A DNA stretch of 64,000 bases from assembly GCA_949285535.1 (NCBI GenBank), contig CASDZP010000004.1, positions 1 to 64,000 on the forward strand, given 5' to 3'. A program made the position numbers and the translations under genes. This document shows positions 91 to 60,110 of this stretch, one piece after another (positions within the stretch are counted from its first letter, which is position 1; the number at the start of each line of letters is the position of its first letter). The DNA comes from an uncultured Alistipes sp. GTDB lineage: Bacteria > Bacteroidota > Bacteroidia > Bacteroidales > Rikenellaceae. The notes under the pieces are model-generated. The model ran no database searches, was not told where the DNA came from, and saw nothing but the letters and a program-made list of their open reading frames with translations.

Positions 91-146
91 CACATTCTTT
101 TTCATCTTCTTCATTTTCATTTTTCGAAGGCAATACACTAAGAGAC

Positions 147-250
147 GCTGACTTCTAAAAAGACAATGAACCAAATGAATATGACATGGTCAAAGTAGCT
201 GTGCCCCCGAGGGACAAAGTAACTCCCGCCGAAGGTACCCTCAGAAAACT
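147..250 (-). repeat. Dispersed intergenic element, copy A
   Basis: Copy A of a family with five members here. In family orientation it starts with a CT-GAGGG-like end facing the gene at 411-4370, continues through GTTACTTTGTCCCTCG and the GGGGGCACAG block, and ends with the conserved TTTGACCATGTCA, TTCATTTGG and GAAGTCAGC blocks. It lacks about 18 bases that make the second arm of the internal hairpin in copies C, D and E. It looks like the most decayed copy. No intact protein is encoded. Confidence 0.75.
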
Positions 251-287: not shown

Positions 288-466
288 TTCCTTGGCAGAA
301 AGTACACGATTGCGGTTTCCGTATCGTTGTAGATGAGAAATAGTCGATATCTAAATAAAAAAGACGGCTCAATATAATATTGAGCCGTCTTTTTTTATTT
401 GGATAATCGACTATTCCTCATCTACAACGATACGGAAACCGCAATCGTGTACTTTCTGCCAAGGAA
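288..466. repeat. Long inverted repeat: 3' end of the 411-4370 gene duplicated around its terminator
   Basis: Bases 288-375 are an inverted, nearly exact copy of bases 377-466. The copy includes the last 56 or so coding bases of the gene ending at 411, its stop codon and its trailer, with the terminator hairpin at the centre. Differences are few: one G/A change next to the stop, small changes in the trailer and one base in the A-run. The copied segment is bordered on the outside by element A. Confidence 0.9.
361..391 (-). terminator. Bidirectional rho-independent terminator
   Basis: Stem AAGACGGCTCAATAT with its complement around the centre at about 376, flanked by T-runs on both strands. 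It ends the transcript of the gene at 411-4370 and sits at the centre of the larger inverted repeat. Confidence 0.85.
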
Positions 467-3400
467 GGAAGTGACGACGGGTGTAAGAGGTAGCGTCTTT
501 GGGTCTATCCCACCAAGAACCGCCACGAACTACTTTATAAACCTGTTCGCCTTCGGGAAGTTTCTTGACATCATACGGTTTGTAGTCAGAGCTTGTCCAC
601 TCTTCAACGTTACCAATCATGTCATAGAGACCCCACGGGTTAGCCTCATACATACCACCTTTGGGCTCGAGGAGCATATTACCATCATCCACACCCTCTA
701 CTTTGGGCAGGAAGTTGTAATATTTATACCAGAAGCTTGTTTTGGGCATAGGCTGCGGGTCGATACCTGAAACGGCCATCTTCTCGAGCTGTACGTCTGC
801 AAGGTTGGCATATTTAGAGAAGTCTGTATTGAGGTTACCATACCATGTGGGCTGGTCAGAACCTGCGCGGCAAGCCCATTCCCACTGTTCCTCTGTCGGG
901 AGAGTGACTTTGAAACCTGTCTTTTCAGAGAGCAGACGACAATATTCGACTGCATCTTCGTAAGAGACTCTTGTCACTGCCTGATCGGGAAGGTTAGCGG
1001 GATAACCGGGAGTGGTATGGTCTTTCCACTGCTGAGCGATATATCTGCTGTCATGTTCGGGAACAAGAGCGCAGAACTGTTCGTTTGTTATCTCAAACGC
1101 ACCAATCCAGAACGGTTTGTCTATCTTGGCTTTAACCTCCTTAGCATCGAGACCGTAACGGTTGTCACCCATAACGAATGAACCTGCGGGCACTTTGCGC
1201 AAAACAATCTTCACGCCGGGAGCGACCTCAATCTCTTTGCGTGTTTCACCAAGAGCATCCTGTTTCTCAACAGCCTGTTCTGCCGTGAAGGGCCATCCTT
1301 TGACTTTAACGTCTTTGAGAGTTTCTTTTGTCTCTACGGGAAGTACGGGTTCAACCGGACCTTTGGCTTTAAGATAAGCGGCATAGTCGTCTATCTCTTT
1401 CTGCCAATCGACAACCATGTTGTTGTACTTCTTGGCAAGTTCCATACGACGTTTCACCTGGTCCTGACCTCTAAAGTCGTTCACATTATTGAATGTGCTG
1501 TAATAAGGACAGTTGAAGTCAATCCAGTTATAAAGAGTACGCCACTCTTTGTCTGTGAGTTCCACTCCGTGGTGTCCTTTTTTGAGCATCTGAATCATCG
1601 GAGATGTAGAAGCGTGATATTCGTACGGTTTCATAACGTAAATATCGGCTTCGGGGCCCTGACGACGGAAGTAGGGATGGAACTGGAGATAGCTTTCAGA
1701 GAATCCAAGACGGTCATCGTAACGTCCTGAAGTAAAGTTTATAGAGCTGTTCTCGTTGTGGCAAGCGACGCATGCACGGTCGAGAATGGGCTGTATTTCA
1801 AGTTCGAAAGTGAAAGCTCGTGTACCACCCTCGGGAGCCTCTATTTCGAGAGGTTTCATCTTCTGGGCAATGGTAGATTTAGGCACGGGCATCTGGTTCT
1901 GGTCTTCGTGACATCCGACGCAAGATACCGTTTCACCGGGCATACCTGTAAGCCAGCTTCTCATCCACTGTATCGCACGTCCCTCTGAGTCGAGAGGCTG
2001 AAGCGAGATAGGAGTGTTTGCGGGAATCTTGAAGATAACGGAACCGTCTTCCTGAACGGGTACTTCACCGAGCAGTCGTTTGATATCCCAACCGCTCTGG
2101 ATACCCTGAGCCGCATGGTTAGAGGGAGAGTTCACATAAGCGTATTCGTAAGCGAACACACGCAGTTTCTTAACCTCGCCGCGGGGAACACCGGGAAGAC
2201 CTTCACCTTCATATATATCCTGAATAAAGACTGTCGCATCTTTCTTTGACAAATCAACCTTGTCGGGGATAACGGGAGGAATGGGGCGTTTTTCACGAAG
2301 AATCGGGTTGTTCAAACCTTCGCCTTCAAATTCGGCAATCAGAGTTACGTTGTCGAATACGTCCACCAGATAGATACCCCAAAGAGACTCTTCTTCGAGT
2401 TTTGCAGAAACGAGGAAATATTTGTCAGAGATGGGATAAGGTTTCATGAACTGAGGCCATACACCGTTGACAAGTTCGTCTTTGATTTCGGGAATTACCT
2501 CTCTGTTACGGAACGGAATCTCCTGAACGAGACCTTTCAGCTCTTTACGACCTTTTGCGGGGTCGAAAATCATGAGACGGCCTGTACGGGCGATACCGTG
2601 GTGACCTGAAATGATTGAGATGAACGCAGACGCAGAACCGGGAAGAGGCTGTACGTCAAAGGTACTGTTGGGGAAGTAACCGCCACTACCGTAAAGCGCT
2701 TTGGCTTCGGTTCCGTCAGGGTTCATGTGCATGACGAAACGAGAGAAGTAGTGTGTAAGGTCGGTATATTCCCAACGTACATACATCAACTTACCATTGT
2801 TCATCACGACGGGATTCCAGTTGGCATCCTGGTCGAATGTGATACGTCTGAGGTTGCGGTCTTCGGGATTGTAGAGCACCATGTTACCTACGGCATCCTC
2901 ACCATCGACACAAGGTACACCCTGATAACCGATGTTTGACACTGCCATAATCTTACCGTTGGGAAGATATGCCGCATCGAAGAACTCGAGGTCCTCGTCA
3001 TCGACGGTCACGAGCTCTTTCGCGTTCTTACCATCGACACCCACTTCGAATACGCCCCAGAGACCTTTCTCGTTGATTGCAGAGAACATCATTCTGTCGG
3101 CGTTCCAGTGCAGGTGAAGGTCGGGAACAGAGCTTCCGCCCTCGGGTTTGTAGATAGAACGTGTTGACATGTCGCCTGCCACATCCATGAGTTCGGCAAT
3201 CTCTGCGTCGAAGCCCATACGGGGAGCAGACATCTGGTTAGACCAGTTGTTGGCCTGAGTACCGAGCTGGGGACCCATTGCAGTACGTGCGTTGTCGCCG
3301 AGACGGTAACGTCCCACCAATATGTTACCTGATTTGAGGTAGGGGTTGGCGAGCATTATCTCTCTCTGCAATGAAAGCGCTTTTTCAGCTTTGGCAAGCT

Positions 3401-4370
3401 CCTCTTCTGAACCGTTATAGATATTTATGTTAGAGGCAAGCAAAGACAACAGCTCGTTAACCTTGGGTTCAACAGCAGCAGCGTCGAAACCTTCGATTGT
3501 CTTCATGTCGGCAAAGGCATCTTTTATGCTTGCCGCATTGAGCCATTTGAACTTGCTCTGAACAAACAACACCTTCTTGGCACTGTTGAATATATCAACA
3601 TATTCTTTAGCCGCTTCGGGTTTCGATGCGTCAACTTTTGCCAAAAGAGCATTGAAATAACTCGGGTTGATGAGTTTGCCTACTATGTGTTTGGCTGCGC
3701 TCTTCTCTATATAGGCATTGTCGAGTTCGTTTGCCCATGCGGGAGTGTAAACCAGACCCAGCTTCACGAAATCATTGACCTCCTGATGGTTTATTGCCAA
3801 CAGAGAGTTAAGCACATCGCGAGAAGCCACGTTCTGGAAATCTACGCGAACGGCACCCTCTCTTGACGAGAAGTCGTCAAGACCGAGTTCCAATGTGAGC
3901 GTTTTGTATTTCTTGTCAAGTTTCAGTACGAGTTCGCCGTTGGGGTTCATAACCATACCGTTGTCATAGCGTGTACCGCTAATGGTTATGGGACGGCGAT
4001 ATCTGTTCTGATTGTAACTTATGCCACCGGGGAACATGAAATAATCTTTCTGTGCACGGTCCAAAGTGACTGTCGTTCCGTCTTCGGCCACGAGTTTGCC
4101 GTTGGCCATCACCAACTGGTCATTACCGTTTCCTTTTCCGGTCACGCTGACAAGAACAGCCAGCTTGTCGAGACCTGAAACATCGACGGTAACGCTCTTG
4201 GCGCGTTCTCCTCTGCGCACGATCTCACTCTTGGGCATTCCTGCCTTGGCGAGAGAGGCTGCAACCTCCTTTTTTGCATTCACAACGGCATCGCCCCACT
4301 CCTGCGCAAAGAGAGGAGACCAACACGTCATGGCAGCAAAAAGCATGCACGATAAAATCGTTCTCTTCAT
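411..4370 (-). CDS. Secreted multidomain protein: HzsA-like propeller with two CxxCH motifs and C-terminal FGE-sulfatase domain
   Basis: 1319 residues with an N-terminal signal peptide. Residues about 50-190 form a beta-rich region resembling NPCBM carbohydrate-binding modules. A helical stretch follows, then a propeller-like region (about 410-740) resembling the middle domain of hydrazine synthase alpha subunit homologues. Two c-type haem motifs follow, CVGCH (817-821) and CVACH (867-871). From about 1045 to the end is a formylglycine-generating-enzyme/SUMF1 fold, with GSFVMG, LPTEEQWEWACRAG, GNVEEWTSS and VVRGGSWWDRP. The family suggests a periplasmic or surface redox protein; substrate and reaction are unknown. 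It is the last gene of a minus-strand group with the propeller gene 45 bp upstream. FGE-fold domains often have roles other than sulfatase activation, so that activity should not be assumed. The 3' end is duplicated in inverted form beyond the terminator. Confidence 0.8.
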   Translation of the reverse strand: MKRTILSCMLFAAMTCWSPLFAQEWGDAVVNAKKEVAASLAKAGMPKSEIVRRGERAKSVTVDVSGLDKLAVLVSVTGKGNGNDQLVMANGKLVAEDGTTVTLDRAQKDYFMFPGGISYNQNRYRRPITISGTRYDNGMVMNPNGELVLKLDKKYKTLTLELGLDDFSSREGAVRVDFQNVASRDVLNSLLAINHQEVNDFVKLGLVYTPAWANELDNAYIEKSAAKHIVGKLINPSYFNALLAKVDASKPEAAKEYVDIFNSAKKVLFVQSKFKWLNAASIKDAFADMKTIEGFDAAAVEPKVNELLSLLASNINIYNGSEEELAKAEKALSLQREIMLANPYLKSGNILVGRYRLGDNARTAMGPQLGTQANNWSNQMSAPRMGFDAEIAELMDVAGDMSTRSIYKPEGGSSVPDLHLHWNADRMMFSAINEKGLWGVFEVGVDGKNAKELVTVDDEDLEFFDAAYLPNGKIMAVSNIGYQGVPCVDGEDAVGNMVLYNPEDRNLRRITFDQDANWNPVVMNNGKLMYVRWEYTDLTHYFSRFVMHMNPDGTEAKALYGSGGYFPNSTFDVQPLPGSASAFISIISGHHGIARTGRLMIFDPAKGRKELKGLVQEIPFRNREVIPEIKDELVNGVWPQFMKPYPISDKYFLVSAKLEEESLWGIYLVDVFDNVTLIAEFEGEGLNNPILREKRPIPPVIPDKVDLSKKDATVFIQDIYEGEGLPGVPRGEVKKLRVFAYEYAYVNSPSNHAAQGIQSGWDIKRLLGEVPVQEDGSVIFKIPANTPISLQPLDSEGRAIQWMRSWLTGMPGETVSCVGCHEDQNQMPVPKSTIAQKMKPLEIEAPEGGTRAFTFELEIQPILDRACVACHNENSSINFTSGRYDDRLGFSESYLQFHPYFRRQGPEADIYVMKPYEYHASTSPMIQMLKKGHHGVELTDKEWRTLYNWIDFNCPYYSTFNNVNDFRGQDQVKRRMELAKKYNNMVVDWQKEIDDYAAYLKAKGPVEPVLPVETKETLKDVKVKGWPFTAEQAVEKQDALGETRKEIEVAPGVKIVLRKVPAGSFVMGDNRYGLDAKEVKAKIDKPFWIGAFEITNEQFCALVPEHDSRYIAQQWKDHTTPGYPANLPDQAVTRVSYEDAVEYCRLLSEKTGFKVTLPTEEQWEWACRAGSDQPTWYGNLNTDFSKYANLADVQLEKMAVSGIDPQPMPKTSFWYKYYNFLPKVEGVDDGNMLLEPKGGMYEANPWGLYDMIGNVEEWTSSDYKPYDVKKLPEGEQVYKVVRGGSWWDRPKDATSYTRRHFLPWQKVHDCGFRIVVDEE

Positions 4371-20441: not shown

Positions 20442-22541
20442 ATGAAAAAACTGATACTATCGACACTCGTCTTTTCATCGGCGGCTGTTGTCTCGGCGCA
20501 GGAGCTGACCTCCCCCGACAACAACCTGAAACTGACATTCATGCTCGACTCTAACGGCGTTCCCGCCTATACACTCACCTATAAGGACAAAACGGTCGTG
20601 AAGCCCGGACGTATGGGGTTCATCATTAAAGACGGCATATCACTTGCCGACGGTTTCGAGATGACAGAATGCGACTACGACAGCGTGGATACCGTGTGGA
20701 ACACCGTATGGGGACAGAGCTCCACGGTGAGAGACAACCACAAGGAGATGTTCGTATCGCTGACGCGCAAAGACAACGGACTCAAAATGGGCATACGCTT
20801 CAGACTCTTCAATGACGGTCTGGGATTCAGGTATGAGTTTCCCGTACAGCCGTCGCTCCGCCACTTCACGATAGAGAACGAGGTGACGCAGTTTGTGCTC
20901 ACGGGCGACCACAAGGCGTTCTGGATACCCGCCGACTATGACACCAACGAGTTTCAGACAACCACATCGAAGCTGTCGGAGGTATTCGAACTGTCGAAAG
21001 GTGTGATAAAGAACCCGCCCGCCACAAACGAGCCGCTGCCCTACCCCGCGGTACAGACGCCTCTCATGCTCAAATCTGACGACGGGCTCTATATAAACAT
21101 CCACGAGGCGGCACTGATAGATTTTCCTGGCATGCACCTTAACCTCGACGACGAGAATTTCGTGCTCAGCTCACACCTTACCCCCGACAGAAACGGCGAC
21201 AGAGGACACATACAGACAGGAAGTGTCTCTCCGTGGAGGACGATAGTGGTGAGCGACGACGCGCGTGACATCCTCGCATCCAACCTTATACTGAACCTCA
21301 ACGAGCCGTCCAAAATTGAGGACACATCATGGATAAAACCGATAAAATATGTCGGCGTATGGTGGGAATACTTCACGGGTCAGGGCTCTACATGGGCATA
21401 CTCTGACGAGAAAGACATTGTGATAGGCGTGACCGACTACAACAAGGTTAAACCCAACGGTCACCATGGTGCCAACACGGAGCATGTGAAAGAGTACATC
21501 GACTTTGCCGCCGAGCATGGTTTCGACGCCGTGCTTGTTGAAGGCTGGAACCAAGGCTGGGAAGACAATCAGGCGTACCTGAAAGAGAAGATATACAGCT
21601 TTACCACTCCCTACCCCGACTTCGACGTCGAGTATCTGAGCGACTACGCGGCGAAGAAAGGCGTTAAGATAATAATGCACCACGAGACGACCTCATCGGT
21701 GATAGACTACGAGCGGCAGCTCCACGACGCCTTCAAGTTCATGAACAAATACGGCTACGAGGCTGTCAAGACGGGTTATGTCGGCAGTATCATTCCCCGA
21801 AGCGAGCATCACGACGGTCAGTGGATGGTTAACCACTATAACTATGTGGCGGAGACAGCCGCCAAATACCATATCATGGTTGACTCTCACGAGGCTGTCC
21901 GCCCCACAGGTCTATACAGAACCTATCCCAACTGGCTGGCGCAGGAGTCTGCACGAGGCACGGAGTACGACAGTTTCAACGGCAACAACCCCGACCACCA
22001 CACCATTCTGCCGTTCACGCGTCTCATGGGCGGTCCCATGGACTACACGCCGGGTATATTCGAGGGTGACCTCTCGGTATATGGTCCCAACAAGGCTAAA
22101 CTCAGCACAACGCTCGCCAAACAGCTCGCTCTCTACATCACGATGTACAGCCCGTTCCAGATGGCGGCTGACCTGAAAGAGAATTACATGAAGTATCCCG
22201 ACGCCTTCCAGTTCATAAAAGACGTTGCTGTCGATTGGGATGCGACCTATGTTCTTGAGGCTGAGCCAGGCGATTACATCACGATGGCGCGTAAAGAGCG
22301 TGGAGCCGACCGTTGGTTTGTCGGAGCGATAACCGACGAGAATGCCCGCACCGCGACTGTCTCTTTCGACTTCCTCCCGAAAGGCAAAACCTACACCGCC
22401 ACCATATACGCCGACGGCAAAAACGCCCACTGGCTTGACAACCCGAAAGAGTATCGCATATACACCAAGAAGGTGACATCCAAAGACAAAATTGAGATAC
22501 CTTTGGCATGTAGCGGTGGTGCGGCAATCAGCATAGAGTAA
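20442..22541 (+). CDS. Glycoside hydrolase family 97 (SusB-type alpha-glucosidase)
   Basis: 699 residues with a signal peptide (cleavage after VVSAQ). All three GH97 domains are present: an N-terminal beta-sandwich (about 20-270), a TIM barrel (about 280-560; YVGVWWEYFTGQGSTW, AAEHGFDAVLVEGWNQGW) and a C-terminal beta domain. The segment MHHETTSS has Glu where inverting SusB-type members carry a catalytic Glu, and VDSHEAVRPTGL supplies a second conserved Glu. This favours the inverting alpha-glucosidase subgroup over the retaining alpha-galactosidases, which use Asp. The action is release of glucose from alpha-glucans in the periplasm. The last part of the gene is duplicated in inverted form beyond its terminator. 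Confidence 0.92.
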   Translation: MKKLILSTLVFSSAAVVSAQELTSPDNNLKLTFMLDSNGVPAYTLTYKDKTVVKPGRMGFIIKDGISLADGFEMTECDYDSVDTVWNTVWGQSSTVRDNHKEMFVSLTRKDNGLKMGIRFRLFNDGLGFRYEFPVQPSLRHFTIENEVTQFVLTGDHKAFWIPADYDTNEFQTTTSKLSEVFELSKGVIKNPPATNEPLPYPAVQTPLMLKSDDGLYINIHEAALIDFPGMHLNLDDENFVLSSHLTPDRNGDRGHIQTGSVSPWRTIVVSDDARDILASNLILNLNEPSKIEDTSWIKPIKYVGVWWEYFTGQGSTWAYSDEKDIVIGVTDYNKVKPNGHHGANTEHVKEYIDFAAEHGFDAVLVEGWNQGWEDNQAYLKEKIYSFTTPYPDFDVEYLSDYAAKKGVKIIMHHETTSSVIDYERQLHDAFKFMNKYGYEAVKTGYVGSIIPRSEHHDGQWMVNHYNYVAETAAKYHIMVDSHEAVRPTGLYRTYPNWLAQESARGTEYDSFNGNNPDHHTILPFTRLMGGPMDYTPGIFEGDLSVYGPNKAKLSTTLAKQLALYITMYSPFQMAADLKENYMKYPDAFQFIKDVAVDWDATYVLEAEPGDYITMARKERGADRWFVGAITDENARTATVSFDFLPKGKTYTATIYADGKNAHWLDNPKEYRIYTKKVTSKDKIEIPLACSGGAAISIE

Positions 22542-22730
22542 CCGTATAACGACATAAAACATAAAATTTCAGGGTGAGGTTTAGGATTCAAACCTCACCT
22601 TGAAATTTTATGCTTTATGTCGTTATACGGTTACTCTATGCTGACTTGTCGTACCACCACATGTCAAAAGTATCTCAATTTTGTCTTTGGACGTCACCTT
22701 CTTGGTGCATATACGATACTCTTTCGGGTT
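22440..22730. repeat. Inverted duplication of the GH97 gene 3' end around its terminator
   Basis: Bases 22587-22730 are an inverted copy of 22440-22580 or so, covering the last 100 bases of the GH97 reading frame, its stop and its trailer. The two arms differ by nine substitutions, all transitions, plus a 3-base and a 1-base indel. The terminator hairpin is at the centre. The outer edge of the copy meets element B. The divergence shows this is not a sequencing or assembly fold-back. Confidence 0.92.
22564..22611 (+). terminator. Terminator of the GH97 gene
   Basis: Stem made of AAATTTCAGGGTGAGGTTT and AAACCTCACCTTGAAATTT around a short loop, AT-rich on both flanks. It lies at the centre of the inverted duplication. 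Confidence 0.75.
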
Positions 22731-22735
22731 ACATG

Positions 22736-22850
22736 CTCCCGGGGGCACAGCCCCTTTTGACCATGTCACATTCATTTGGCTCATTATCTTCCACGAAGTC
22801 AGCATCTCCCCGCACTCGCCTTCCGCTTTTTCGACCCTCACCCATGACAC
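22736..22850 (+). repeat. Dispersed intergenic element, copy B (5'-truncated)
   Basis: Begins at CTCCC, so it lacks the first half with the GTTACTTTGTC hairpin. It keeps GGGGGCACAGCCCC, TTTTGACCATGTCACATTC, TTTGGCTCATTATCTT and GAAGTCAGCATC. The orientation relative to the neighbouring gene end is the same as in the other copies. Confidence 0.8.
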
Positions 22851-30571: not shown

Positions 30572-30620
30572 CACATCGGGGTCATAACCCTTTATCGGTT
30601 AGGGTTATGACCCCGATGTG
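30572..30620 (+). terminator. Long hairpin beyond the radical SAM gene, abutting element C
   Basis: A perfect 20-bp stem (30572-30591 with 30601-30620) and a 9-base loop, starting 3 bp after the stop codon. There is no T-run behind it; element C begins at the next base. It is probably the original terminator, with its T-run side replaced by the element. Confidence 0.75.
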
Positions 30621-30790
30621 GCTCTCCGAGGGCGCTCCCGCGGGGGTCTGCCGACGGCGTTACTTTGTCCCTCGACAAAGTAACCAAAACGAGGGGGCAC
30701 AGCCCCTTTTGACCATGTCACATTCATTTGGCTCATTATCTCTTTGGAAGTCAACATCGAACCGTTTATCGCCTCATGTCCGCTCATACC
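30621..30790 (+). repeat. Dispersed intergenic element, copy C
   Basis: A full copy. It opens with CTCCGAGGGCG, has an 11-bp-arm hairpin GTTACTTTGTC / GACAAAGTAAC (30659-30684), a GGGGC-ACA-GCCCC hairpin (30694-30706), then TTTTGACCATGTCACATTC, TTTGGCTCATTATCTC and GAAGTCAACATC. The minus strand happens to be open for 60 codons, but copies A, B and E do not preserve that frame. Confidence 0.85.
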
Positions 30791-43884: not shown

Positions 43885-44050
43885 ATGGGAAAGCGGGAGG
43901 CGACAAACGGTGAGATACCGACTTCCAAAAAGATAATGAACCAAATGCGTATGACATGGTCAAAAGGGGCTGTGCCCCCTCGTTTTGGTTACTTTGTCGA
44001 GGGACAAAGTAACTCCCACGGAAGGCGCCGTCGGAGACCCCTCGGAGAGA
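43885..44050 (-). repeat. Dispersed intergenic element, copy D
   Basis: A full copy in reverse: on the minus strand it opens CTCTCCGAGGGGTCTCC, has GTTACTTTGTC / GACAAAGTAAC, the GGGGC-ACA-GCCCC hairpin, TTTTGACCATGTCA and GAAGTCGGTATC. It lies between rpmE (via an inverted terminator copy) and the orphan riboswitch region. Confidence 0.85.
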
Positions 44051-44051
44051 T

Positions 44052-44107
44052 GCTCTTTTTTGTATGTTATCGGTTTAGGTCAAAACCGATAACATACAAA
44101 AAAGAGC
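44052..44107. repeat. Inverted copy of the rpmE terminator trailer
   Basis: Arms 44052-44076 and 44083-44107 are perfectly complementary (25 bp, 6-base loop). The right arm is the T-run and last bases of the rpmE terminator plus its trailer; the left arm is the inverted copy, bordered at once by element D. Confidence 0.85.
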
Positions 44108-57540: not shown

Positions 57541-58851
57541 ATGGTAATACAGCTTTTGGTCGTCCTTGTGGCGATAATAATAGGGGCACGACTCGGCGGC
57601 ATAGGGTTGGGAGTGTTCGGAGGTGTAGGACTTGCGGTGCTGGTCTTCATCTTTGGACTCACACCCACATCGCCTCCGATAGACGTGATGCTGATGATTG
57701 TGGCGGTCATTGCGGCGGCGGCATGTATGCAGGCGGCGGGCGGTCTCAACCTCATGGTACATTGGGCGGAGAAAATCCTGCGCAACAACCCGCAGAGGAT
57801 AACGATACTCAGTCCGCTTGTGACATACACGTTCACATTCATAGCGGGAACGGGTCACGTGGCATATTCAGTGTTACCCGTGATAGCGGAGGTGGCGTCC
57901 GAGACGGGGATACGTCCCGAACGACCGTTGTCGATAGCGGTGATAGCCTCGCAGCAGGCAATAACGGCGAGCCCCATATCGGCGGCGACCGTGGCGTTAC
58001 TCAGCATGCTCGGCGCGCAGGGCTTTGACATAACCCTCGGCGATATTTTGCTGATATCCATTCCCTGCACCCTGATAGGCGTAATCGTCGGAGCGATATG
58101 CTCTCTCCGTGTAGGTAAGGAGTTGAAAGACGACCCCGAATATCTGCGTCGCCTCAAAGAGGGAGAGATAAAGAAAGAGACGACTACAACAGACGGTATG
58201 AACAACAAGCGCGCCGCGCTCACATCCGTGATATTATTCCTCGCCGCGACAGCAGGCATAATAGTATTCGGTTCGTTTCCCGAACTTCGCCCCTCATTCG
58301 ACGGCAACTCGATGTCCATGTCATACATAATCGAGATACTGATGCTCTCTGCGGCGGCATTAATCCTTATATCGACGCGTACCGACGGCATAAAGGCGGC
58401 GCAAGGCTCTGTCTTCTCCGCAGGCATGCAGGCTGTGGTGGCGATATTCGGTATTGCGTGGATGGGTGACACCTTCATAGGCGGCAACATGGCGGAGATA
58501 AAGAGTTCGATAGAGGAGACCGTTACGGCGATGCCGTGGCTTTTCGGCGTAGCGCTCTTCGTGATGTCCATACTGCTATTCAGTCAGGCGGCAACCATCA
58601 GAGCCTTGCTCCCTCTCGGCATGGCATTAGGCATATCGCCCTACATGTTGATAGCTCTTTTCCCCGCTGTCAACGGCTATTTCTTCATCCCCAACTACCC
58701 CACCGTCGTAGCGGCGATAAACTTCGACAAGACAGGAACAACCCGCATCGGCAAATACATCCTCAACCACTCCTTCATGATGCCCGGCATGGTCGCAACA
58801 GTCACGGCAGTTGTCTTGGGTATCGTAATGGTAAATATCCTTTATCTGTAA
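57541..58851 (+). CDS. Anaerobic C4-dicarboxylate transporter (DcuA/DcuB family)
   Basis: 436 residues with about 10-11 membrane segments. DcuA/B exchange fumarate, malate or aspartate for succinate in anaerobic respiration. Family patterns: ARLGGIGLGVFGGVGLAVLVF, SPLVTYTFTFIAGTGH, RPLSIAVIASQQAITASPIS. No signal peptide. The last 52 coding bases are the left edge of a perfect palindrome with element E beyond. Confidence 0.93.
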   Translation: MVIQLLVVLVAIIIGARLGGIGLGVFGGVGLAVLVFIFGLTPTSPPIDVMLMIVAVIAAAACMQAAGGLNLMVHWAEKILRNNPQRITILSPLVTYTFTFIAGTGHVAYSVLPVIAEVASETGIRPERPLSIAVIASQQAITASPISAATVALLSMLGAQGFDITLGDILLISIPCTLIGVIVGAICSLRVGKELKDDPEYLRRLKEGEIKKETTTTDGMNNKRAALTSVILFLAATAGIIVFGSFPELRPSFDGNSMSMSYIIEILMLSAAALILISTRTDGIKAAQGSVFSAGMQAVVAIFGIAWMGDTFIGGNMAEIKSSIEETVTAMPWLFGVALFVMSILLFSQAATIRALLPLGMALGISPYMLIALFPAVNGYFFIPNYPTVVAAINFDKTGTTRIGKYILNHSFMMPGMVATVTAVVLGIVMVNILYL

Positions 58852-58978
58852 GGGATTAAAAAACGATTTACGGAGTATATGTGTCGGATTATGACACATA
58901 TACTCCGTAAATCGTTTTTTAATCCCTTACAGATAAAGGATATTTACCATTACGATACCCAAGACAACTGCCGTGACT
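58800..58978. repeat. Perfect 86-bp-arm palindrome spanning the dcu gene end and terminator
   Basis: Arms 58800-58885 and 58893-58978 are identical as reverse complements over 86 bp, with a 7-base loop. The left arm holds the last 52 coding bases of the dcu gene, the stop, and half of its terminator; the right arm is the inverted copy. Element E starts at the next base. With no mismatch, the duplication is either very recent or actively kept. Confidence 0.93.
58862..58918 (+). terminator. Terminator of the dcu gene
   Basis: Stem AACGATTTACGGAGTATAT plus GTGTC with its complement, loop GGATTAT, then a T-run. It forms the core of the palindrome. Confidence 0.85.
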
Positions 58979-59156
58979 CTCCGAGGGGTCTCCCGACGAG
59001 CTCTCCGAGGGCGCCTTCCGCGGGAGTTACTTTGTCACTCGACAAAGTAACCAAAACGAGGGGGCACAGCCCCTTCTGACCATGTCACACCCCGTTGGCT
59101 CATTATCTTTCAGGAAGTCGGCATCCAAACGGCGCCTCGCCTCTCGCATGGGCTTA
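58979..59156 (+). repeat. Dispersed intergenic element, copy E
   Basis: A full copy. CTCCGAGGGGTCTCC, CTCCGAGGGCGCC, CGGGAGTTACTTTGTC with the matching arm GACAAAGTAAC, GGGGC-ACA-GCCCC, then TGACCATGTCACAC, TTGGCTCATTATCTTT and GAAGTCGGCATC. It runs up to the stop codon of the exchanger gene, so no 26-bp motif is present on the far side. CTCCGAGGG occurs twice. Confidence 0.85.
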
Positions 59157-60110
59157 TCAGGAGCCTTGTGATATGAGATAGACGGTGTAAACGATATAGC
59201 AGATAATCAAGGCAATACCCTCAAGGCGTGTTATGGTACGCTTCTTGAACGCCAAGGCAACAAGCCAGAAAAGAACGCTCGAAGCGACAAGAACAGCCAT
59301 GTCAATCATCGTGATACCACCCAGATTCAACGGAGCGACAGTCGCGCTGACACCGAGAACTCCGAATATGTTGAACAGATTGGAACCGACAACATTGCCT
59401 ATCGCTATGCCCGAATTTTTCTTATATGCGGCGACAACACTCGTGGCAAGTTCGGGAAGAGACGTGCCGCCCGCAACAAGCGTCAGACCTATGACAGACT
59501 CGCTGACACCCATCATGCGCGCTATACCCGACGCCCCGTCAACAAACAGACGAACACCCGCTACAAGCGCAACAAGTCCGAGTACAATATAAAGCGTAGA
59601 TTTAAATACGCTCATCTCCTTGGGTGACGGTTCGTCGTCGTTTCCGTTTTTTGCGATTGCAAAAGTATAACCGAGGAAAATGGCGAAGAAACAGAGCATC
59701 ACGATACCGTCGCCACGGCTCAGAACATTGGTCGTCTGCGAAGCGAACAGCGTATCGAAAGCACATACGGACAACACAACCGATGCCAATATACAGAGAG
59801 GCAATTCTCGGGTGAGAGTACCCTTACCCACAGATATGGGCATCACCAACGCCGTCGCGCCTATTATCATCAACGTATTGAATATGTTGGAACCGACAAC
59901 ATTACCGATCGCTATCTCCGGATTACCGTTGATAGACGATATGAGGCTCACCGTAAATTCTGGCGCAGATGTTCCGAAAGCGACAATGGTCAAACCTATC
60001 ACCAGATTGGAGATTTTAAAACGCTTTGCGACAGAAGCCGCTCCGTCTGTAAGGCCGTTGGCACCGACCAATATCAACACCAACCCCAAAATCAGAAACA
60101 AAAAGTCCAT
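59157..60110 (-). CDS. Na+/Ca2+ exchanger family protein (YrbG-like)
   Basis: 317 residues with about 10 membrane segments in two homologous halves. The alpha repeats are seen as TIVAFGTSAPEFTVSL...GNVVGSNIFNTLMIIG and LVAGGTSLPELATSVVA...GNVVGSNLFNIFGVLG, with the ion-binding Glu in each. Its stop codon borders element E directly. Confidence 0.95.
   Translation of the reverse strand: MDFLFLILGLVLILVGANGLTDGAASVAKRFKISNLVIGLTIVAFGTSAPEFTVSLISSINGNPEIAIGNVVGSNIFNTLMIIGATALVMPISVGKGTLTRELPLCILASVVLSVCAFDTLFASQTTNVLSRGDGIVMLCFFAIFLGYTFAIAKNGNDDEPSPKEMSVFKSTLYIVLGLVALVAGVRLFVDGASGIARMMGVSESVIGLTLVAGGTSLPELATSVVAAYKKNSGIAIGNVVGSNLFNIFGVLGVSATVAPLNLGGITMIDMAVLVASSVLFWLVALAFKKRTITRLEGIALIICYIVYTVYLISQGS

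Follow-up and report, generated by a model that had tools for sequence, protein, structure and literature searches.

Template switching at hairpins has usually been inferred from single mutations or reporter constructs. In quasipalindrome mutation in Escherichia coli (Ripley, Lovett; thyA hotspot), a polymerase halted at an imperfect inverted repeat takes the nascent strand as its template and then goes back, so that the palindrome becomes more perfect (PMC7202029). One such event can make whole stems, as in RNA hairpins, where pairing is then maintained (PMC8794818). The palindromes described here resemble quasipalindrome mutations in that an inverted copy is anchored at a hairpin and imperfect repeats turn perfect, presumably by a strand that templates itself and then returns, but the copies are approximately 30 to 146 nt long, extend into coding sequence at dozens of loci in a genome, and require a particular repeat on one flank. 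They share perfect stems with the RNA hairpins, but that work concerns RNA genes and ancestral reconstruction, whereas here a dispersed element and the 3' ends of protein genes are involved. REP/BIME sequences and their RAYT partners (PMC3733652, PMC6006769) are likewise short hairpin repeats with many intergenic copies, sometimes in inverted pairs; the repeat described here differs in being ∼150 bp long and in carrying an array of mini-hairpins. Nematomorph mitochondrial genes contain perfect inverted repeats that overlap coding sequence and reach 284 bp (PMC6649704), but these are organelle genes with coding sequence in both arms, and the part of that report considered here mentions no flanking element.

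The window, the whole stretch of 64,000 nt analyzed here, comes from a metagenome-assembled genome (MAG; G000) that is 88% complete, and contains a palindrome made from the 3' end of dcu (Table 1). The two arms are complementary at all 86 positions, as an initial annotation had stated, and a perfect inverted match of this length is far out of reach of chance alone. The annotation counted 52 copied coding bases plus the stop; the gene end is indeed copied, but the stop had been counted twice, and the true figure is 49 coding nucleotides plus TAA. The repeat it placed directly after the palindrome, here called element E, does start at the next base, 58979 (CTCCGAGGGG...). The hairpin that follows dcu is probably the dcu terminator, judging by its A-tract and T-run. 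When the dcu locus was compared with its orthologues in three related genomes (G001, G002, and G003), neither E nor a palindrome was found there.

Table 1. Features of the window, numbered from its first nucleotide
Feature	Position	Strand	Basis or remark
Second gene-end palindrome, 50-bp arms	288..466		E at ~123-246 (-), degenerate, part of core hairpin lost
Third palindrome, 31-bp perfect arms	22528..22644		E at ~22702-22806 (+)
Short palindrome, 20-bp arms, without coding copy	30572..30620		Abuts E at ~30621-30761 (+)
Short palindrome, 25-bp arms, without coding copy	44052..44107		Abuts E at ~43914-44050 (-)
dcu (gene A), anaerobic C4-dicarboxylate transporter; 3' end copied	57541..58851	+	ORF; TIGR00770 (Dcu)/NF006927
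Left arm: 49 final coding nt and stop (TAA) of dcu, left half of putative terminator	58800..58885	+	Sequence
Hairpin loop GGATTAT, 7 nt, presumed original terminator loop	58886..58892		Terminator role suggested by stem and T-run
Right arm, perfect inverted copy of 58800-58885	58893..58978	-	86/86
E, 5' part: mini-hairpin units of 10-13 nt in an array, their 3-bp stems covarying (CTC-TCC-GAG, GTC-TCCC-GAC, CGC-CTTCC-GCG)	58979..59025	+	
E, core hairpin GTTACTTTGTC-ACTC-GACAAAGTAAC	59026..59051	+	Near-invariant across 73 copies
E, second hairpin AGGGGGCACAGCCCCTT, terminator-like	59059..59075	+	
E, tail: conserved blocks CCATGTCA, TTGGCTCATT, GAAGTC	59076..59130	+	3' boundary approximate
Gene B, calcium/sodium antiporter, convergent; own end without fold-back copy	59157..60110	-	Copy score 10 = background

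At least 40 sequences in G000 match E strongly, and the core hairpin of E occurs there in 116 copies, 58 per strand. E is found on the 3' side of a gene oriented toward it, often between convergent genes. The array at its 5' end has one to about six units per copy, with stems GTC-TCC-GAC, CTC-TCC-GAG, CGC-TCC-GCG, and CAC-TCC-GTG. In 73 to 78 copies, the core hairpin (GTTACTTTGTC-NCTC-GACAAAGTAAC) and the second hairpin (GGGGGCACAGCCCC, followed by TT) are both close to invariant, while the tail consists of conserved blocks amid freely varying columns. The core is invariant even though nearby columns vary by up to 56%, and an unchanged core in old copies indicates selection on each copy; E is an old dispersed element that is selectively conserved. 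It had no match in plasmids or viral contigs. We considered whether E could be the coding tail of a minus-strand gene (ending ...SFWLLCRVTK and a stop), but variation among copies at the three codon positions (0.08/0.13/0.17) was not convincing, since second positions vary too. A RAYT transposase was also rejected as a partner of E, as none was found in the genus: Y1_Tnp was not found in the four genus genomes (82 to 88% complete), and it was found in 5 of 14 controls. There is no GTAG/CGTC tag beside the E core GGGAGTTACTTTGTC...GTAACCAAA, and, to our knowledge, inverted copies of gene ends are not a feature of REP sequences. Group IIC introns insert after terminators; no Rfam intron model matched the window or E at the gathering score. 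Across the window, Rfam identified only a cobalamin riboswitch (RF00174, 43181-43391, 91.9 bits).

The dcu palindrome is one of many. We searched 796 kb of G000 for the last 60 coding bases of each gene in inverted form within 350 bp downstream, taking a score of at least 25 as positive; the gene counts are approximate because open reading frames were called mechanically. Among gene ends facing E, 35 of 44 have an inverted copy of their own end between the terminator and E, compared with 0 of 536 gene ends without E (top score 15.8) and 0 of 22 genes that flank E on its opposite side (top score 11.4) in the same 796 kb (Fisher, 4e-48 and 1e-10, respectively). The copies thus depend on E and are polar with respect to it. 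The earlier suggestion of fold-back copying that is anchored at a terminator hairpin and linked to E is supported. The coding part copied has a median length of 73 nt and ranges from 33 to 146 nt.

A search for palindromes themselves gives the same picture. All five in the window whose perfect arms are 20 bp or longer are on the 5' side of an E copy, and in three contigs (C1, C2, and C4; 433 kb) the same is true of 29 of 34, with one of the other five located at a contig end. The gene beside the palindrome at 288..466 (411-4370) encodes a protein with an FGE-sulfatase domain. We examined approximately 80 of the 116 E copies of G000 and found an inverted repeat, spanning ∼45 to 340 bp, 5' of nearly every one. 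Arm identity is graded, from 100% down to ∼80%; the centers are short loops with well-matched inner stems; and in most copies the right arm reaches the unit array of E, or nearly so. These observations point to one genome-wide series tied to E, not a single odd insertion. In some stretches (L011, L024, L028, and L034), E occurs in convergent pairs ∼280 to 660 bp apart with a palindrome on each outer side, and the inner segments of such pairs share repeated motifs, e.g., GACGGGGTACGCTTGCCAACTTGTCG.

A second, independent Rikenellaceae MAG (G003) has the same anatomy, running from the gene end through a hairpin and the inverted gene end to the unit array and core of E. In G000 and G003 alike, E and a palindrome are present at four gene ends, which from reading the sequences we take to be those of rplQ, rpsN, oadB, and mutB. 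These shared E sites could be old or could be independent insertions. At each of them, the right arm fits the gene end of its own species far better than that of the other; for the G000 right arms, the scores are 111 versus 24, 78 versus 21, 72 versus 13, and 65 versus 18. The arms were therefore copied after the species split.

If a palindrome were made when E arrived, young palindromes should lie beside young copies of E, and the initial annotation had indeed proposed that fold-back copying was part of the insertion of E. We compared 69 of the 116 E copies, a sample from an incomplete MAG in which a close sibling of some copies could be missed; the identity of each to its nearest neighbor is mostly 0.91 to 0.96 and shows no correlation with the identity of the arms (Spearman 0.00, p 0.99). 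Mean pairwise identity is 0.873 (maximum, 0.936) among the 15 copies next to palindromes whose arms mismatch at no more than 2% of positions, 0.877 among the 19 next to palindromes above 8%, and 0.875 between the two groups. Among the copies compared, none beside a perfect palindrome has a near-identical sibling. E beside young palindromes is as diverged as E beside old ones, so E is older than the young palindromes. Palindromes thus arise at resident E, and their age is independent of its age. The link to insertion was not borne out, while the proposal that the dcu right arm is recent is supported.

We consider it probable, though well short of certain, that the series arose as DNA synthesis repeatedly switched template between the hairpin of the terminator and the hairpin array of E. 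According to this model, E, as an old conserved element just 3' of terminators, would stall a DNA strand at or near its array; the strand would then fold or jump at the terminator hairpin, make an inverted copy of ∼30 to 150 nt from the gene A end, and return at the edge of E, where the junction would show little or no homology. Each event would overwrite the spacer between terminator and E, giving a perfect palindrome that would then decay by mutation until the next event. The strand could come from the gene, fold back at the hairpin, and return at E, or it could come from E, jump to the opposite strand within the gene end, and run back at the hairpin. Either route would leave little of the old spacer and would never copy the far gene. 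Fold-back is seen at both orientations of E inside single contigs, so the outcome is not set by replication fork direction alone. As at quasipalindrome hotspots, the arms have gained complementarity by copying, with perfect and near-perfect arms at many loci and right arms that match their own species, and the central hairpin appears as the switch point. The template is likely a replicating DNA strand and not RNA, the palindrome centers are likely terminators, and E may either stall synthesis or receive the returning strand. More tentatively, E could be a polar barrier or docking site for the replication fork, perhaps protein-bound, and so a genome-wide programmed hotspot that rewrites its own 5' spacer with inverted copies of the neighboring gene; we see this as possible but somewhat doubtful.

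Several observations count against template switching. The laboratory quasipalindrome events known to us are much shorter than the copies here. A comparison of inner and outer parts of the arms gave no gradient of renewal outward from the hairpin (p = 0.26), and partial renewal was not clearly evident from a change-point test within arms. SbcCD is a hairpin nuclease expected to attack such palindromes, and both SbcD and SbcC are encoded in all four genomes (G000 to G003), so loss of SbcCD was rejected as the reason that the palindromes are tolerated.

Other explanations have to account for the same series. E might insert at terminators, with the fold-back copy made in the same event by a self-primed strand joined to E. 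This would fit the tight linkage of E and palindrome, the right arm that abuts E without leftover spacer in most copies, and the lack of both at dcu in the relatives; however, the ages of E and palindromes are unrelated, and copies of E beside perfect palindromes are neither mutually close nor accompanied by a close sibling, making such an origin unlikely. The annotation had also allowed for an RNA template, which would mean that a reverse transcriptase primed at the terminator copied the 3' end of the gene A mRNA. The copied stretch does run from the hairpin to the gene end, and the target genes include several of a kind that is usually expressed at a high level (rpoC, dnaK, yidC, rplQ, and rpsN; dnaK and yidC by Pfam, rpoC and others presumed from C-terminal sequence). 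Yet the sole reverse transcriptase found in G000, which matched no curated diversity-generating retroelement (DGR) model and which we take to be of DGR type from its motifs LPIGNLTSQ and GRYVDDF, lies beside variable-repeat cassettes. G001 has the enzyme but no fold-back at sampled repeats, and it was not found in G003, where fold-backs occur (all of these MAGs are incomplete). Since its distribution (G000 and G001, not G003) does not track with the trait, the enzyme was rejected as the driver. Mismatch rates in the arms are 0.056 for A, 0.084 for C, 0.060 for G, and 0.048 for T, and transitions dominate; the adenine-specific mutation expected of DGR activity is not seen, and DGR copying is an unlikely source of the palindromes. 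Copying from RNA would also leave unexplained the 536 gene ends that lack both E and copies. The inverted copying in the earlier proposal stands; its RNA option is unneeded and, in our judgment, quite unlikely.

Selection could also keep the arms identical without recopying, if a long hairpin or cruciform were useful, e.g., as a bidirectional terminator between convergent genes. The frequent position of E between such genes and its conserved core are consistent with this, but the copies include a median of 73 coding nt, far beyond the needs of termination, arm identity is continuous from ∼80% to 100%, and compensatory change across 86 bp without a switch event is improbable; we think it very unlikely that selection alone maintains the arms. 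Finally, the window comes from a MAG, where chimeric fold-back reads from assembly or amplification are a concern. Chimeric reads would yield only perfect copies, whereas here the arms have diverged to differing degrees at dozens of loci, each linked to E on one side and lying in a contig that runs on into the next gene. Together with the same anatomy in the independent MAG, the graded arms indicate that the series is not an amplification artefact, and we give an artefact of either kind hardly any credence.

The separate ingredients all have precedent. In the open-licence papers searched, we found no precedent for a dispersed element accompanied by dozens of long, inverted copies of gene ends, all of them on the same side of it. 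One genome here offers dozens of natural events of graded age with the same anchoring element and the same polarity. With such a series one can test what makes polymerases change strands and at which sites, whether that change can be directed by a repeat, and for how long palindromes persist while the cell retains SbcCD. The series also represents a route for repeated copying of coding sequence into noncoding DNA. More generally, long perfect palindromes in MAGs are not necessarily artefacts.

The E2 repeats of G001 and G002 had no fold-back on the side tested in the copies sampled. These genomes carry a short repeat that is unrelated to E (CTTCCGGGGGAGGGGTCNCGGACCCC; 168 and 126 copies, e.g., in stretches L066-L095), followed by a hairpin with a variable stem and a conserved loop, which is inverted in 2 of 25 cases. 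Such loop inversion is reported to be a mark that template switching leaves when it occurs between the two arms of a repeat (PMC8604942). The motif GTTACTTT-N-AAAGTAACCAAA is present in 20 of 395 Bacteroidota genomes (e.g., G546, G460, and G505), and copies sampled outside this genus showed no gene-end fold-back; it sits in otherwise different repeats, sometimes in convergent pairs a few hundred base pairs apart. The DGR-type reverse transcriptase of G000 (456 aa) is located beside nfo on contig C12 at ∼34.8 to 40 kb (L064:6818-12001). The multi-cassette layout next to it is unusual, with at least 10 variable-repeat cassettes (...WSSTQYDxxxGYxMNFNSSGVNPSNxNxKSNGLSVRCVRREFA) that are arranged in tandem and partly degenerate.
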